A stretch of 64,000 nucleotides of DNA, from assembly GCF_011761475.1 (NCBI RefSeq), contig NZ_JAASRS010000001.1, positions 248,001 through 312,000 of the forward strand, read 5' to 3'. The translations under genes and the position numbers were made by a program. This document shows positions 22,394 to 33,825 of the stretch, piece by piece. This DNA comes from Saccharococcus thermophilus. Its GTDB lineage: Bacteria > Bacillota > Bacilli > Bacillales > Anoxybacillaceae. Position 1 is the stretch's first letter. Each line of letters opens with the position of its first letter. The notes under the pieces are model-generated. The model searched no databases. It saw only the letters and a list, made by a program, of their open reading frames with translations, and was not told the origin of the DNA.

Positions 22394-22630
22394 AGTGGAT
22401 AAAAGGAGTGGGACCGATGTTTATTTGCTGTGAAGAACATGTGGATATAGCTATTGATATGTATGTGGATGAAACAGAACAAGCCCCTAATATTTCATTG
22501 ATTCCTGTGGATAACTCCGATCAATCGTGCGATTTTTGCGAAAATAAGGCTGTATATATAGTAGGGAACTAACGTTTTTACACAATATGTGGATATGTAT
22601 TGTGTATATGTGGATAAGTGTTGTTGATAA
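22394..22630 (+). other. Cluster of DnaA boxes around yyzF and before rlmH
   Basis: Seven copies of TGTGGATAA-type 9-mers lie in the same orientation. Perfect: 22506-22514 and 22609-22617. One mismatch: 22394-22402, 22440-22448, 22588-22596 and 22622-22630. Two mismatches: 22464-22472. This is far denser than chance. From memory, B. subtilis has oriC-proximal DnaA-box clusters that help restrain initiation, one of them by yydA, its rlmH gene. Confidence 0.82.
22417..22572 (+). CDS. yyzF: CxxH/CxxC small protein YyzF
   Basis: Small protein of 51 residues with an N-terminal CCEEH and a later CDFC, the pair that defines the CxxH/CxxC family and suggests zinc binding. ATG 22417 follows AAAAGGAGTGGG. 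Its coding DNA also carries several DnaA boxes, so the base sequence is under two constraints. No function is known. Confidence 0.85.
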   Translation: MFICCEEHVDIAIDMYVDETEQAPNISLIPVDNSDQSCDFCENKAVYIVGN

Positions 22631-29774: not shown

Positions 29775-31300
29775 TATTGTGATGGATAATCCTCGATTTT
29801 GTTTAAAGGCCGTTTCGCCGGCCCTTCGACGACATCACCGTGAATGGAGAAGCGCGAGCCGTGGCACGGGCAGTCCCAAGTGCGGTCGCCGCTGTTCCAC
29901 TCAATTTCGCATCCCATATGGGTGCATGTCGTATCTACGAGGAACAATGTCCCGTCTTCGTCCTTATACGCGCCAGCGCGCTTTCCGTTTACGGTCACGA
30001 CCGCGCCCTCGCCGTTGGCCAAGTCTTCCGGCTTGCGGACGACCACTTCGATTTTCCCTTCAACAAGGTGTTTCGCGACATCGATATTTTGTGTGAGAAA
30101 ATGTTTGACGCTTGGGTCGGCATAAAACCGCGACGGCGTATATAAGTCACGGTAGCGGTTGTCGTGTCCCAGGATCAGGTCGCTGATTAGTAACCCCGCC
30201 ACTGTTCCGTTCGTCATGCCCCACTTGCGGTACCCTGTCGCGACATAAATATTCGGCGTGTCCGCGGTCATGTTCCCAATGTACGGCACTTTATCAAGTG
30301 TCGTTAAATCTTGCGCCGACCAGCGGTAAGGGATGTCGGTCACTGTAAATAACTCCGAGGCAAACGACTGCAATGCCTCGTAATGCCGCATCGTTGGGAC
30401 GCCTTGTCCTGTCTTATGGTTTTCCCCGCCGATTAAAATTAAGTTTTCCCCATTCATGGACGTATAGCGGATCGAGCGTTTTGGATGATCGGCGCTTAAA
30501 TACATGCCGCCAGGATAGGCTTCAGCGATTTTCACGCCTAATACGTAAGAGCGTTCCGCATACATGCGGGAGAAATAGAAACCGCCGTCATAAAACGGAA
30601 AATGGGAACAAATGACGACATGTTCGCACGTCACCCGCTTTTTGTCTCGGGTGACGACAGTCAGCTCTTGTCCTTGCTCGATGTCGGCGGCGGGCGTGTG
30701 TTCGTAAATTTTTCCGCCTGCCTGGACAACAGTGTCGACTAGTTTCGTTAAGTATTTCAGCGGGTGAAATTGCGCTTGATTTTTCATGACGACCGCGGCT
30801 TTCGCCGGGATTGGAAGCGGGATCGTTTCTAAGAACGCCCCGTCAATGCCGAGCTTTTCATATGCTTTCCATTCATTGATTAACTTCGTTAGCGAGTCGG
30901 AAGAAGTAGTGTATATGTATGCATCCTGTTCCTTGAAATCACAATTGATGTCGTGCTGCTTGACTGTATTGCGGATAAAATGCAATGCGTCCATGCATGC
31001 CTCATAGTACAGTTTTGCCTTTTCCTGTCCAAGGTGTTGAATAAACTCATCATAAATGATGTCGTGCTGTGCCGTAATTTTTGCGGTCGTATGCCCGGTT
31101 GTTCCGTTAAGAAGGCGATCCGCTTCTAATAAAGCGACACGAACCCCCTTTGTAGCAAGCAAATAAGCCGTGGTAATTCCAGAGATTCCTCCGCCGATAA
31201 TGGCAACACCGGTACGAATATCTTCTTCTAGTTTTGGAAACGAAGGCAGATCGACTGATGTCCGCCAATATGGCTCCAATGATGAAGGAAGAGATGGCAT
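29774..31300 (-). CDS. FAD-dependent oxidoreductase with C-terminal Rieske domain
   Basis: Protein of 508 residues that fuses a DadA/glycine-oxidase-type FAD domain to a Rieske [2Fe-2S] domain. The dinucleotide fold GVAIIGGGISGITTAYLLA is near residues 31-49 and the second FAD site near GYRKWGMTNGTVAG (about 360). The Rieske domain at the C-terminus has CTHMGCEIEW and CPCHGSRFS, the C-x-H and C-x2-H ligands. The substrate is unknown; relatives are called Rieske oxidoreductases of the DAO family. The ATG at 31300 is nine bases after AAGGAGG; a TTG at 31309 is too close to it. Confidence 0.9.
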   Translation of the reverse strand: MPSLPSSLEPYWRTSVDLPSFPKLEEDIRTGVAIIGGGISGITTAYLLATKGVRVALLEADRLLNGTTGHTTAKITAQHDIIYDEFIQHLGQEKAKLYYEACMDALHFIRNTVKQHDINCDFKEQDAYIYTTSSDSLTKLINEWKAYEKLGIDGAFLETIPLPIPAKAAVVMKNQAQFHPLKYLTKLVDTVVQAGGKIYEHTPAADIEQGQELTVVTRDKKRVTCEHVVICSHFPFYDGGFYFSRMYAERSYVLGVKIAEAYPGGMYLSADHPKRSIRYTSMNGENLILIGGENHKTGQGVPTMRHYEALQSFASELFTVTDIPYRWSAQDLTTLDKVPYIGNMTADTPNIYVATGYRKWGMTNGTVAGLLISDLILGHDNRYRDLYTPSRFYADPSVKHFLTQNIDVAKHLVEGKIEVVVRKPEDLANGEGAVVTVNGKRAGAYKDEDGTLFLVDTTCTHMGCEIEWNSGDRTWDCPCHGSRFSIHGDVVEGPAKRPLNKIEDYPSQ

Positions 31301-31386
31301 ATCACACAAGCCTCCTTGTCGTGTTTTTATTAGTTTGGCTTGATAAGGGAAAAACTATCCGCCGTGGTTAGAAAAAATGATGTACG

Positions 31387-31428
31387 GAAAGGCAGGTGTA
31401 AAGAACGGCATCTGCTTTTCTTTTTTTG
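31387..31428 (+). terminator. Orphan terminator-like hairpin
   Basis: GAAAGGCAGGTG (about 387-398) pairs with CATCTGCTTTTC (409-420) with one mismatch, followed by TTTTTTT. It lies between divergent genes where no + strand gene ends, so it is either a leader attenuator of the next gene or a leftover. Confidence 0.6.
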
Positions 31429-31521
31429 GTAATTGCACGCAAGAAAAACGAAAGATGATACAATAGGAGTAAAGAACGATCCGAATATTTTATAAAAATA
31501 ATAGTTAAAGGAAGATCGGGA

Positions 31522-32883
31522 GTGAATAAATATTCAAATTTTCACGAAGAAAATGCAGCTGTCTGGCATGATAGCTCGATTTTAGAGCATTACGGTTTAA
31601 ATGAACTAAATTTTGAATCGGTGAAAAGTTATCGGGAAAAATTTGCTTCGGTAAAACCCAATCATCCATGGAATGGGCTGGAGACGAAAGAATTTTTATA
31701 CAAAATTGGTGCATGGGGAAAACTGCGGGACAGCAGCAAAGAAGGGGTAACATTAGCGGGATTGTTAATGTTTAGCGAAGAGCGCATCATTACAGAAGTT
31801 TTGCCACAATACTTTCTTGAATATCGGGAAAGTTTGAACGGTATAGTAACCGGCGATTGGACGACGCGGTTTACCTCGCAGGACGGTACGTGGTCAGGTA
31901 ATTTATATGATTTTTATCATAAAGTAATATCGCAGTTTCAGCGCCATGAGATGGATCCCGCGCTGCAAACAGCGGTATATGAAGCATTAATGAATGCGAT
32001 TGTGCATGCCGATTATTTAGGAGAAGGCGGCATTATCATCGAAAAAGAAAATGGCATATTTCGTTTTGCCAATCCAGGGCTGTTCCGCATCCCAGTCGAT
32101 TCCGCTCTTTCCGGACATATGAGCAATCTTCGCAATCCGAATTTATTTAAAATGTTTATTTTAATTGGCCTTTGCAAACGGGCCGGATTTGGTTTAAGAC
32201 ATATTGCGGCTACCTGGAACGATCGGCGCTGGAAGCAGCCAGAATTTATTCAACATTCGAATCCGGAACGGACGATCGTTGTATTATATCCATTTCATTT
32301 TCCAGCTGAAACAGCGGCTACTTATGAAACAGATATATATCAAAATATGAAACAGCATGATGAGGAAGACATCGATATCTCATTTATGGACGAAGAACCG
32401 GACTCCGTAAATAACAATCTCAACTCCTTAAATAAGGAGTTTAACTCCATAAATAACGACCCTAACTCCGTAAATAATCGCAAAAAGTCCGTAAATAACA
32501 AACGAAACTCCGTAAATATAGACTCTAACTCCGTAAATAGTGATGTATACTCCATAAATAAAGGGGATAACTCCGTAAATAGCTTGCTCAACTCCGTAAA
32601 TAATGAGTTATCCTCTGATGAAATCGATGAGAAACTATGGAATATCGCAGAGTTAGCAAGAAAGAAAAAACGATTGCCTCCAAGTGTGATGGAAAATATC
32701 ATTTTGCAGCTTTGTGAGCAAAGGCCGTTGATGTTAAAGGAATTAGCGGCACTATTGGAAAGAACGCCGGATGGATTAAGAAACAACTATTTAGGCAAGC
32801 TATTAGAGGAAGGAAAAATCCGTCTGAAATATCCAGATCAGCCGAATCATCCGAAACAAGCGTATATGAAAGCGACGGAATAG
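31522..32883 (+). CDS. COG2865-type ATP-binding regulator lacking its AlbA_2 domain
   Basis: Protein of 453 residues resembling the C-terminal two thirds of COG2865 (Schlafen AlbA_2/HATPase_c_4) regulators. Visible family parts are HPWNGLETKEFLYKIGAWG, VTLAGLLMFSEERIITE, DGTWSGNLYDFYHKV, the HATPase segment YEALMNAIVHADY near residues 155-167 and FANPGLFRIP, then GFGLRHIAATW. A linker of ten heptads (residues 294-363) follows and a winged-helix-like C-terminus (PLMLKELAALLERTPDGLRN). The N-terminal AlbA_2 domain normally present is absent. GTG 31522 has AAAGGAAG at a usable distance. DNA-binding regulation is inferred from the family. Confidence 0.72.
   Translation: MNKYSNFHEENAAVWHDSSILEHYGLNELNFESVKSYREKFASVKPNHPWNGLETKEFLYKIGAWGKLRDSSKEGVTLAGLLMFSEERIITEVLPQYFLEYRESLNGIVTGDWTTRFTSQDGTWSGNLYDFYHKVISQFQRHEMDPALQTAVYEALMNAIVHADYLGEGGIIIEKENGIFRFANPGLFRIPVDSALSGHMSNLRNPNLFKMFILIGLCKRAGFGLRHIAATWNDRRWKQPEFIQHSNPERTIVVLYPFHFPAETAATYETDIYQNMKQHDEEDIDISFMDEEPDSVNNNLNSLNKEFNSINNDPNSVNNRKKSVNNKRNSVNIDSNSVNSDVYSINKGDNSVNSLLNSVNNELSSDEIDEKLWNIAELARKKKRLPPSVMENIILQLCEQRPLMLKELAALLERTPDGLRNNYLGKLLEEGKIRLKYPDQPNHPKQAYMKATE
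32401..32610 (+). repeat. Ten tandem 21-bp repeats in the COG2865 gene
   Basis: Ten uninterrupted units of exactly 21 bp, each with a conserved core like AACTCCGTAAATAA and a 7-base variable part. They encode heptads of the type N-S-V/I/L-N-x-x-x. The core varies little (GTA, TTA, CTA or ATA in the middle), whereas the last two or three codons of each unit differ freely. The period keeps the reading frame and equals two helical turns. Confidence 0.95.
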
Positions 32884-32915
32884 GAAGGCGCCGACCAGGC
32901 AGCCTTCTTTTTTAT
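32884..32915 (+). terminator. Terminator after the COG2865 gene
   Basis: GAAGGC (32884-32889) pairs with GCCTTC (32902-32907), followed by TTTTTT. Confidence 0.75.
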
Positions 32916-33057
32916 GTCACGTAAATGGTGCGCATCGAAACCATACAGATGTTGATTAGAAAATTACGACTCAAGTCTTAGAGAAAAATAACACCTTGGC
33001 TCATTAGCGAAATATGGAATGATTGGTAGGATGGAAGACAGAAAGGAGGAGAAAAAG

Positions 33058-33402
33058 GTGAAAAAGCTTGGATTGTTTATCATCGGTGCGATTGCGGCGG
33101 TTATGTTCTTTGCAAACATCAGTTCTCTCGCCGTTTTAGCAGTGAGCCTTGTCATTTTGTATTACGCATGGAAGCGATGGATGAAAGCGAACACAACGAT
33201 GAAAAAACTGTTTTGGATCGCGGTCGGAATTATCGCTTTCGTTGCTTCCGCTTTGAATGCGCCTGCGCTCATTGCAGTTGCCGCAGCGTATGTGTTGTAT
33301 GTAGTTTATAAAAAATGGAATGAAACAAAACAGACGAAGGAAATCGATGACCCGTTTGCTCATTTTGAAAAGCAGTGGGCAGAGTTAGAACGAAGCTTTT
33401 AA
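33058..33402 (+). CDS. Small membrane protein, Lmo0954/LiaI-like
   Basis: Protein of 114 residues with two pairs of hydrophobic helices (about 3-40 and 53-85) and a charged tail that ends FAHFEKQWAELERSF. It resembles the small membrane proteins (Lmo0954 family) found just before pspA-type genes in Firmicutes; the DPFAHFEKQW tail is shared by that group. The next gene is a pspA-like gene, which supports an envelope-stress role by context. The GTG at 33058 follows AAAGGAGGAGAAAAAG; the frame is open from 33019. Confidence 0.75.
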   Translation: MKKLGLFIIGAIAAVMFFANISSLAVLAVSLVILYYAWKRWMKANTTMKKLFWIAVGIIAFVASALNAPALIAVAAAYVLYVVYKKWNETKQTKEIDDPFAHFEKQWAELERSF

Positions 33403-33414
33403 AGGAGGAAAACC

Positions 33415-33825
33415 GTGGTGGCCGATTTATTGACGAGAATTAAAAATATCATCATGGCTGATTTGCATGAGATGATCAATCAAAAAGAAAAGCAAAATCC
33501 AATTGCCTTATTAAATGAATATTTACGGCAATGCGAAAAGGAGGTAGAAAGGGTTCGTCATTTGCTTGAGCGGCAGCACCTATTGAAGACAGAACTCACG
33601 CGCGAATACAATCAGGCGAGAGAGCTTGCGGATAAGCGGAAGTACCAAGCGCAAATCGCTTCCCAAGCGGGGGAAAATGAACTATATGAATTTGCCATTT
33701 TAGAGCAGACAAAATATGAAGAAAGGGCATCGCGAATACAAGAGCTGCTCCAGCAAGTAACAAACGAGCTAGAGCAGTTGGAAAGAAAATATGAAGAAAG
33801 GAAAATAACGCAACGAAGGCCATGA
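33415..33825 (+). pseudogene. Truncated, probably frameshifted PspA/IM30 family gene
   Basis: The 136-residue product is an almost continuous coiled coil and begins VADLLTRIKNIIMADLHEMI, the PspA/IM30 N-terminus. Full-length relatives have about 210-230 residues. After KYEERK the frame runs into TQRRP and a stop, but another frame continues as RKENNATKAMKAINKVQK, which resembles the end of PspA-type proteins, up to a stop near 33885. A deletion with frame change is the simplest reading. GTG 33415 follows AAAGGAGGAAAACC. A shortened product could still be made and bind its membrane partner. Confidence 0.65.

Follow-up and report, generated by a model that had tools for sequence, protein, structure and literature searches.

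The gene at positions 31522–32883 of the window (the whole stretch of 64,000 nucleotides of Saccharococcus thermophilus DNA that was analysed) raises the question of why a coding sequence should carry ten tandem units with an exact period of 21 bp, whether these units are kept for the heptads that they encode or as nucleotides, and, in the latter case, what reads them.

The array gene and its product

The features of the locus, in window coordinates, are as follows.

31456–31464 (+): extended −10-like word TGATACAAT, possibly the promoter of the array gene
31507–31515 (+): Shine-Dalgarno-like sequence AAAGGAAGA
31522–32883 (+): protein gene (open reading frame), 453 aa, GTG start
32065–32262 (+): HATPase_c_4 domain, residues 182–247 (Pfam, 32.3 bits against a cut-off of 26)
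32302–32613 (+): linker, residues 261–364, predicted to be disordered (AlphaFold2 pLDDT below 50 throughout; residues 260–363 in the other run)
32401–32610 (+): array of ten 21-bp units, each RACTCCNTWAATAR plus 7 free bases (from the sequence and shuffles)
32725–32865 (+): C-terminal winged helix (Fic-like_C, residues 402–448), candidate reader of the array (Pfam, fold matches)

The original prediction held that the gene starts where the AlbA_2 domain of its relatives ends and that it has a ribosome site; both statements are borne out, the second by the Shine-Dalgarno-like sequence listed above. The frame 5′ of the GTG is closed by a TGA at 31456, Pfam finds no AlbA_2 in the window protein, and there is no SLFN_AlbA_2 match in any of the three orthologue-group proteins that were run (the window protein, L033 and L048). 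The window protein is a homologue, without AlbA_2, of relatives that we take to be COG2865-type, as the original prediction labelled them, and not a member with the full architecture. A TGATAMAAT-like word is seen by eye in the matching upstream place of many orthologues; TGATACAAT itself was absent from the output of a consensus promoter scan, which found 4 promoters against 4.8 expected.

The C-terminal region (residues 384–453) superimposes on winged-helix chains, among the matches listed, with Z of about 9–10.4 and rmsd of 1.5–3.3 over 58–68 residues, the Fic protein 4rgl giving Z 10.3 and rmsd 2.4 over 68 residues; the VIA-align matches listed cover only the winged helix, except for 3lmm. 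These matches include known DNA-binding proteins, and the Pfam score for Fic-like_C is 23.7 bits, under the cut-off of 27. The winged helix is among the well-conserved parts of the protein. Foldseek with the whole model returned 3lmm and, weakly, histidine-kinase ATPase domains. The linker had been proposed to form a solenoid or polar zipper, and a structured linker finds no support in the pLDDT of about 25 obtained in both AlphaFold2 runs (26 and 32 sequences), low confidence that is still compatible with order when bound.

A match to the protein was found in every one of the 41 family genomes, and by record name it also occurs in Parageobacillus, Anoxybacillus, Thermolongibacillus, Aneurinibacillus, Domibacillus, Peribacillus, Niallia, Sporosarcina, Metabacillus, Lysinibacillus, Ectobacillus, Priestia and Paenibacillus sp. 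FJAT-29882 (as filed). A match at E ≤ 1e-60 was found in 31 of the 348 genomes drawn from the order, one of them being L167 (G278, 36.5% identical), which has an extra winged-helix-like region and no array and was left out of the 67 as more distant; removal of duplicates and of L167 gives the set of 66 orthologues used below.

A paralogue with AlbA_2 (open frames of 637–661 aa) occurs in 10 of the 41 family genomes, the window's own genome being without one, and the orthologue proteins begin just downstream of the point where AlbA_2 ends in this paralogue. The printed orthologue frames, in sets of 55 (duplicates included) and 10, likewise start at that point and are too short upstream to hold the 118-position AlbA_2. 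A recent truncation was rejected on account of these short starts and of the 41 family matches, and the printed frames mark the short start as a trait of the group. The lack of AlbA_2 is borne out by Pfam and by the closed upstream frame, but it is not peculiar to this gene, being the state of the printed orthologues as well.

The gene is followed by a small membrane-protein gene at 33019–33402 (+) and by a gene at 33415–33825 (+) that is presumably PspA/IM30-like, and these two are found in 3 of 29 relatives' loci. A FAD/Rieske gene lies near the array gene in 12 of the 29 loci looked at, some of which are short. The neighbours seem not to be conserved beyond the family.

Conservation of the 14-base core as nucleotides

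The units of the window array start every 21 bp from 32401 to 32590, and all ten are in frame. Each matches AACTCCGTAAATAA at 12–14 of its 14 bases, and the summed match is 131/140, a value that never rose above 66 when the bases of the stretch were shuffled 2000 times. This confirms the ten in-frame units with a 14-base core and 7 free bases that the original prediction had read. There is no deviation from the 21-bp period; the cores vary somewhat, with GAC, AAG and TAC also found at codon 1, and the 7 free bases differ in each unit, so that the whole unit is not homogeneous in the manner of a VNTR. No convincing extra copy was found near the gene's own promoter within the window. Two near-copies of another 21-bp unit, ATATGTGGATAAGTATTGTGT, are found at 22585–22624, with a sequence unlike the array. 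An antisense ORF at 32340–32786 (−), 148 aa, mirrors the array in LFTELxx heptads; because any one antisense frame is open across the array in at most 20 of the 66 orthologues, antisense coding was rejected and this ORF is a by-product.

The array is present in 66 of the 66 distinct orthologues. Units were chosen by the protein pattern only, so that codon choice alone was tested, and the core base stood at 1543 of 1673 core third positions. Synonymous shuffles gave 733.6 ± 18.2, with a maximum of 786, and in none of the 66 genes did any of its own 500 shuffles reach the observed value. Asparagine is encoded by AAC 385 times and AAT 6 times at heptad position 1, and by AAT 512 times and AAC 46 times at position 4, an opposition that is explained by neither tRNA supply nor protein. 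Serine is TCC in 485 of 545 array places. The effect of kinship was eased by the use of 15 representatives and of 17 independent close pairs. In the representatives (13 genus names as filed, the window gene standing for Parageobacillus by likeness; three have proteins identical to named loci), serine is TCC at 130 of 142 places inside the array and at 26 of 364 in the rest of these genes. Single-base departures from AAC at codon 1 are nonsynonymous in 203 cases and synonymous (AAC–AAT) in 2, a count for which units were picked by nucleotide score and which thus leans towards the core. The change of TCC to TTC (Phe) was seen 48 times, against 45 for all synonymous TCC changes together, and where the residue at codon 1 changes the core base is retained (GAC, AGC, TAC).

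Among the 17 pairs, which have equal unit numbers, core third positions diverge by 0.077, against 0.152 at third positions elsewhere, whereas core first and second positions diverge by 0.097, against 0.030 elsewhere; the free bases, at 0.347, are the fastest class. The core therefore changes as a single nucleotide word, and the spacer diverges more rapidly than third positions do. The same core, which in extended form reads RACTCCGTAAATAACGA, and the same codons recur in genera with about 50% protein identity; what is kept in the core is its nucleotide sequence and not the peptide. The codon test, the divergence and the TCC usage all indicate selection on the nucleotides of the motif, as is characteristic of iterons.

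Counted by nucleotide score, in-frame units number exactly ten in 44 of the 66 orthologues (range 5–11), a count that, unlike the protein-chosen codon test, is partly circular; counted by protein pattern there are ten in 34 genes (range 7–13), this count adding a degenerate flanking heptad in some genes, so that the window gene has 11. Motif intervals are exactly 21 bp in 520 of 557 cases, stray hits and one non-orthologue (L167) included, and those of 42 and 63 bp reflect units that are degenerate or missing. Array span is equal in 125 of 144 between-species pairs with at least 85% identity, and the 19 that differ, mostly by one unit, trace back to a handful of genes (L027, involved in 12 pairs, L013, L086/L087 and L089). 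In nine close pairs compared unit by unit the differences are mostly point changes in register, and free-base identity over 68 pairs is 0.522 at the same unit index, against 0.319 at other indices. The active expansion and contraction of the original prediction is not supported: single-unit differences occur, but because the spans are so often equal, units are gained and lost slowly, and unit number does not commonly vary between close relatives as in a VNTR. The array is an old, nearly constant feature, with a fixed period and orientation, a near-fixed copy number and fast-changing spacers.

Repeats in AlbA_2-bearing relatives

Pfam places SLFN_AlbA_2 in L054, L115, L116, L159 and L178. AlbA_2-type relatives in other phyla often have shorter arrays in the same place in the linker, some with a related core. 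The family's own paralogue has four 21-bp units AACTCCGGACCTAACG, two of them diverged; Salmonella (L159) has three direct copies of RRCTTAACGCATARYG, and E. coli ABU 83972 (L178) three of TTGATCACGGATAACGA, one with 3 mismatches. The linkers of the Pantoea and Burkholderia relatives hold several copies of RACTCCACANATARCG and of AGCTCCGGAGGTTTCGA and its variants, respectively, and that of Pseudoalteromonas L116 several repeat copies. In the viral contig L180 there are four copies of AGCTCCGAACATAACG, in L181 three of AACTCCGGTTATAA, and in L190 three of GACTCCACACATAAGG with one 18-bp interval. Among the core types are RACTCCGTAAATAACGA, GGACCT and ATCACGGATAACG. L118 has two imperfect copies only, and no repeats were seen in the linker of Bacteroides L123.

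With a matrix built from the orthologues, the linker sites rank first in L180, L181, L190, L117 and the near-twins L054/L059, where none of 300 synonymous shuffles reaches them; the other 16 of the 22 AlbA_2-type relatives tested, among them L118, L123, L182, L183, L186, L187 and L189, gave no comparable match, L115 being reached by 4 of 300 shuffles and the others by 37 or more. Outside this test were the shorter relatives L121, L122 and L124, which are without the C-terminal part, as well as L188 (frame cut) and L192 and L193 (other architecture).

Some AlbA_2-type relatives have periods of 12, 18 or 24 bp. The viral contigs L182, L183, L186, L187 and L189 carry linker arrays of about 8–14 near-identical units with a 12- or 24-bp period and GAGCT- or CTTAGT-type words; GAGCTNRGT is common to L182, L183, L186 and L189, and L187 has CTTAGTACTGAG. 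Parabacteroides L119 has copies of one 11-mer at distances of 20 and 22 bp, so that the middle copy is in another frame, and in Salmonella (L159:3542–3581) an inverted copy faces the first direct copy as a 12-bp inverted repeat; the out-of-frame copy and the inverted copy both point to the nucleotide sequence as the unit of selection. In E. coli, a degenerate copy of the repeat with 3 of 17 bases mismatched is found at L178:2748–2764, 217 bp before the gene start, and could be an operator; the match is too weak to use. The E. coli relative was found in 8 of 5426 genomes at 99.9–100% identity, and the two sequences compared are of equal length.

Relatives of the AlbA_2 type lie between genes for subunits S and R of type I restriction systems on Pseudoalteromonas plasmids (L116, L118). 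L178 and L124 (Streptococcus satellite phage Javan416) adjoin genes annotated as DNA-damage-inducible protein D, and L124 also adjoins an integrase gene. Against a library of defence systems the window protein gave weak linker matches only, and relatives matched parts of pAgo-type models (L054 at 4.8e-13). Proteins of the L054 type are rare, with 4 of 299 genomes of the phylum at E ≤ 1e-60, its own gene included. A PF13749 search of 249 genomes of the phylum gave matches in 55, and none of the 30 loci viewed by eye has a linker of the window type; L127 and L145 do show short repeats, though not of this kind, and L154 is an unrelated frame. A HATPase_c_4 match was absent from the B. subtilis control genome.

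Viral contigs yielded no relative by the orthologue profile and none in a scan with L116, and phage and plasmid records contain no match to the array; a mobile or phage origin of the array gene was accordingly rejected. Two-copy motif hits in viral contigs look like chance. A viral scan with the AlbA_2-type profile gave 19 loci, of which L180–L193 were viewed, 11 being laid out as repeats, and L194–L198 were left out.

Candidate readers of the array and known systems

Like iterons, the array consists of tandem direct repeats of a short motif at a near-constant spacing of about two helix turns. The exact tandem pair occurs in its own genome in this gene only; in the order, 23 of the 348 genomes have it, against 2 for the backward control, and it lies inside the orthologue in 22 of the 23 (10 placed by reading frame, the rest by coordinates) and in a low-complexity gene in the remaining one. 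The strict single motif is found outside the gene 4 times in the 3.1 Mb of its own genome, against 2 for the backward-pattern control. Since the tandem pair is all but confined to the orthologue, the simplest reader is the gene's own product.

We therefore propose, with a probability of about 0.58, an iteron-like arrangement in which the ten repeats are nucleic-acid recognition sites lying head to tail within the coding sequence for their own most likely reader. The target would be double-stranded DNA, and the winged helix at the C-terminus of this protein would bind a single unit; molecules bound to neighbouring units, which are two helix turns apart, would be aligned on one DNA face and could cooperate by way of HATPase_c_4, the ATP-binding domain. 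The outcome would be a nucleoprotein complex local to the gene, which would exert at minimum a feedback on transcription of the gene and might extend into a larger nucleoprotein structure, and the disordered heptad linker would be mainly a by-product of having to translate the array.

As for phasing, the four readable departures from the 21-bp grid are all of +9 or +12 bp: 30 bp in L045, 30 bp in L166, 33 bp in one clade (L088, L091, L093, L161) and 51 bp in L048 and L049. This is about one extra helix turn, so that the sites stay on about one face; the chance of an in-phase departure is about one third each, or about 1 in 81 for four events. The 12-, 18- and 24-bp arrays of the AlbA_2-bearing relatives speak against a general phasing rule. 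The idea that the repeats are a DNA target stands in so far as they behave as a nucleic-acid target; that this is DNA, with its sites on one face of the helix, is probable.

Alternatively, the ten ACUCC-N3-AAUA motifs may act in the mRNA, binding the protein itself or another RNA-binding factor and so regulating translation or decay. Such a site would be conserved as nucleotides, on the sense strand only and within the transcript, as the orthologue array is, lying on the coding strand in one frame, and the relatives carry SLFN_AlbA_2 and are annotated as RNA-binding domain-containing proteins. On the other hand, the window protein is without that domain, the period is two DNA turns with departures in phase, the Salmonella copy is inverted (though it may be an RNA hairpin), no Rfam-type family was found in 31300–33100, and the fold of the array RNA is not notable (z −1.5). 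DNA is favoured over RNA, and we consider an RNA site possible but not the outcome to be expected.

It is unlikely that this gene merely houses a DNA site meant for some other protein, for instance a factor that organises the chromosome. What speaks for such a site is the position of the gene, which lies 37–69 kb from dnaA in all 17 family genomes tested (of 41; Anoxybacillaceae), 62 kb from it in one genome of another family, and 322–443 kb from it on the other side in five genomes of a third, distances across contig ends assuming a circular chromosome; the shared distance within the family is synteny, so these count as two or three observations and do no more than hint at an origin-linked role. 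Against such a site stand the near-confinement of the tandem pair to this gene and the repeats at the same place in homologous genes of other phyla. Less probable again is a reading in which ATP drives the protein as a DNA clamp or bridging factor, with the single in-gene array near the origin as the place of nucleation and loading; the gene and its array would then be a self-contained element of these spore-forming Bacillales, centromere-like or nucleoid-organising, and AlbA_2 homologues elsewhere would rely on arrays within their genes in the same way, in a mobile or defence context.

The other explanations fare poorly. A role of the repeats as protein only (heptad linker, zipper, solenoid or multivalent motif) would account for the N-S-x-N pattern of all printed orthologues but not for opposite codons for the same residue, fixed third bases, the frequency of TCC to TTC or a linker predicted to be disordered, and is very improbable. 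We give equally little credence to a neutral slippage array kept alike by copying within it: the units are tandem and in frame, the free bases change fast, 19 of the close pairs differ in span and the relatives L186, L187 and L189 do resemble recent slippage, but the core and codons shared by distant genera, the equal spans, the units in register and the retention of core bases beyond synonymous expectation contradict it. Ribosome pausing at TCC, rare elsewhere in the same genes, or another codon-level role is scarcely to be expected when both asparagine codons are fixed, AAC at one place and AAT at another, and the core base holds through changes of residue.

If the reading as an iteron-like array bound by its own product is true, a family known here by its domain names carries its own binding-site array in its coding sequence, each member has a readable DNA (or RNA) target motif, so that target, specificity and co-evolution are directly testable, and a repetitive disordered linker can result from selection at the nucleotide level. 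The arrays of this family are not described in the titles and abstract openings surveyed in the open-access literature, a scope that excludes subscription papers and preprints.

The best fold match to the model is DIP2311 of Corynebacterium diphtheriae (PDB 3lmm; Foldseek E 3.5e-11), which superimposes with Z 22.7 over 281 residues and an rmsd of 23.9, so that the domains are placed differently. The COG2865-type proteins (the paralogues L054–L059, E. coli L178, Burkholderia L115, Pseudoalteromonas L116) share a homologous ATPase and C-terminal region and have repeats in the same linker; they differ in having AlbA_2 and an extra winged-helix-like region, and mostly 3–4 units, often with another core. 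RacA of B. subtilis, according to excerpts of PMC6593407, is a DNA-binding protein whose ram sites are dense near the origin and spread along the chromosome; unlike the window array, these sites do not form one array in one gene, and no homology is claimed. The sections consulted of PMC3985674 describe ori-lambda as four 19-bp iterons in the middle of gene O of phage lambda. No sign of a replication origin was seen at the array gene, unlike ori-lambda, and here the gene is chromosomal, the sites number about ten, and the predicted reader is an unrelated protein (HATPase_c_4 plus winged helix). What the two have in common is head-to-tail sites about two helix turns apart in the middle of a gene, which in lambda is the gene of the binding protein.
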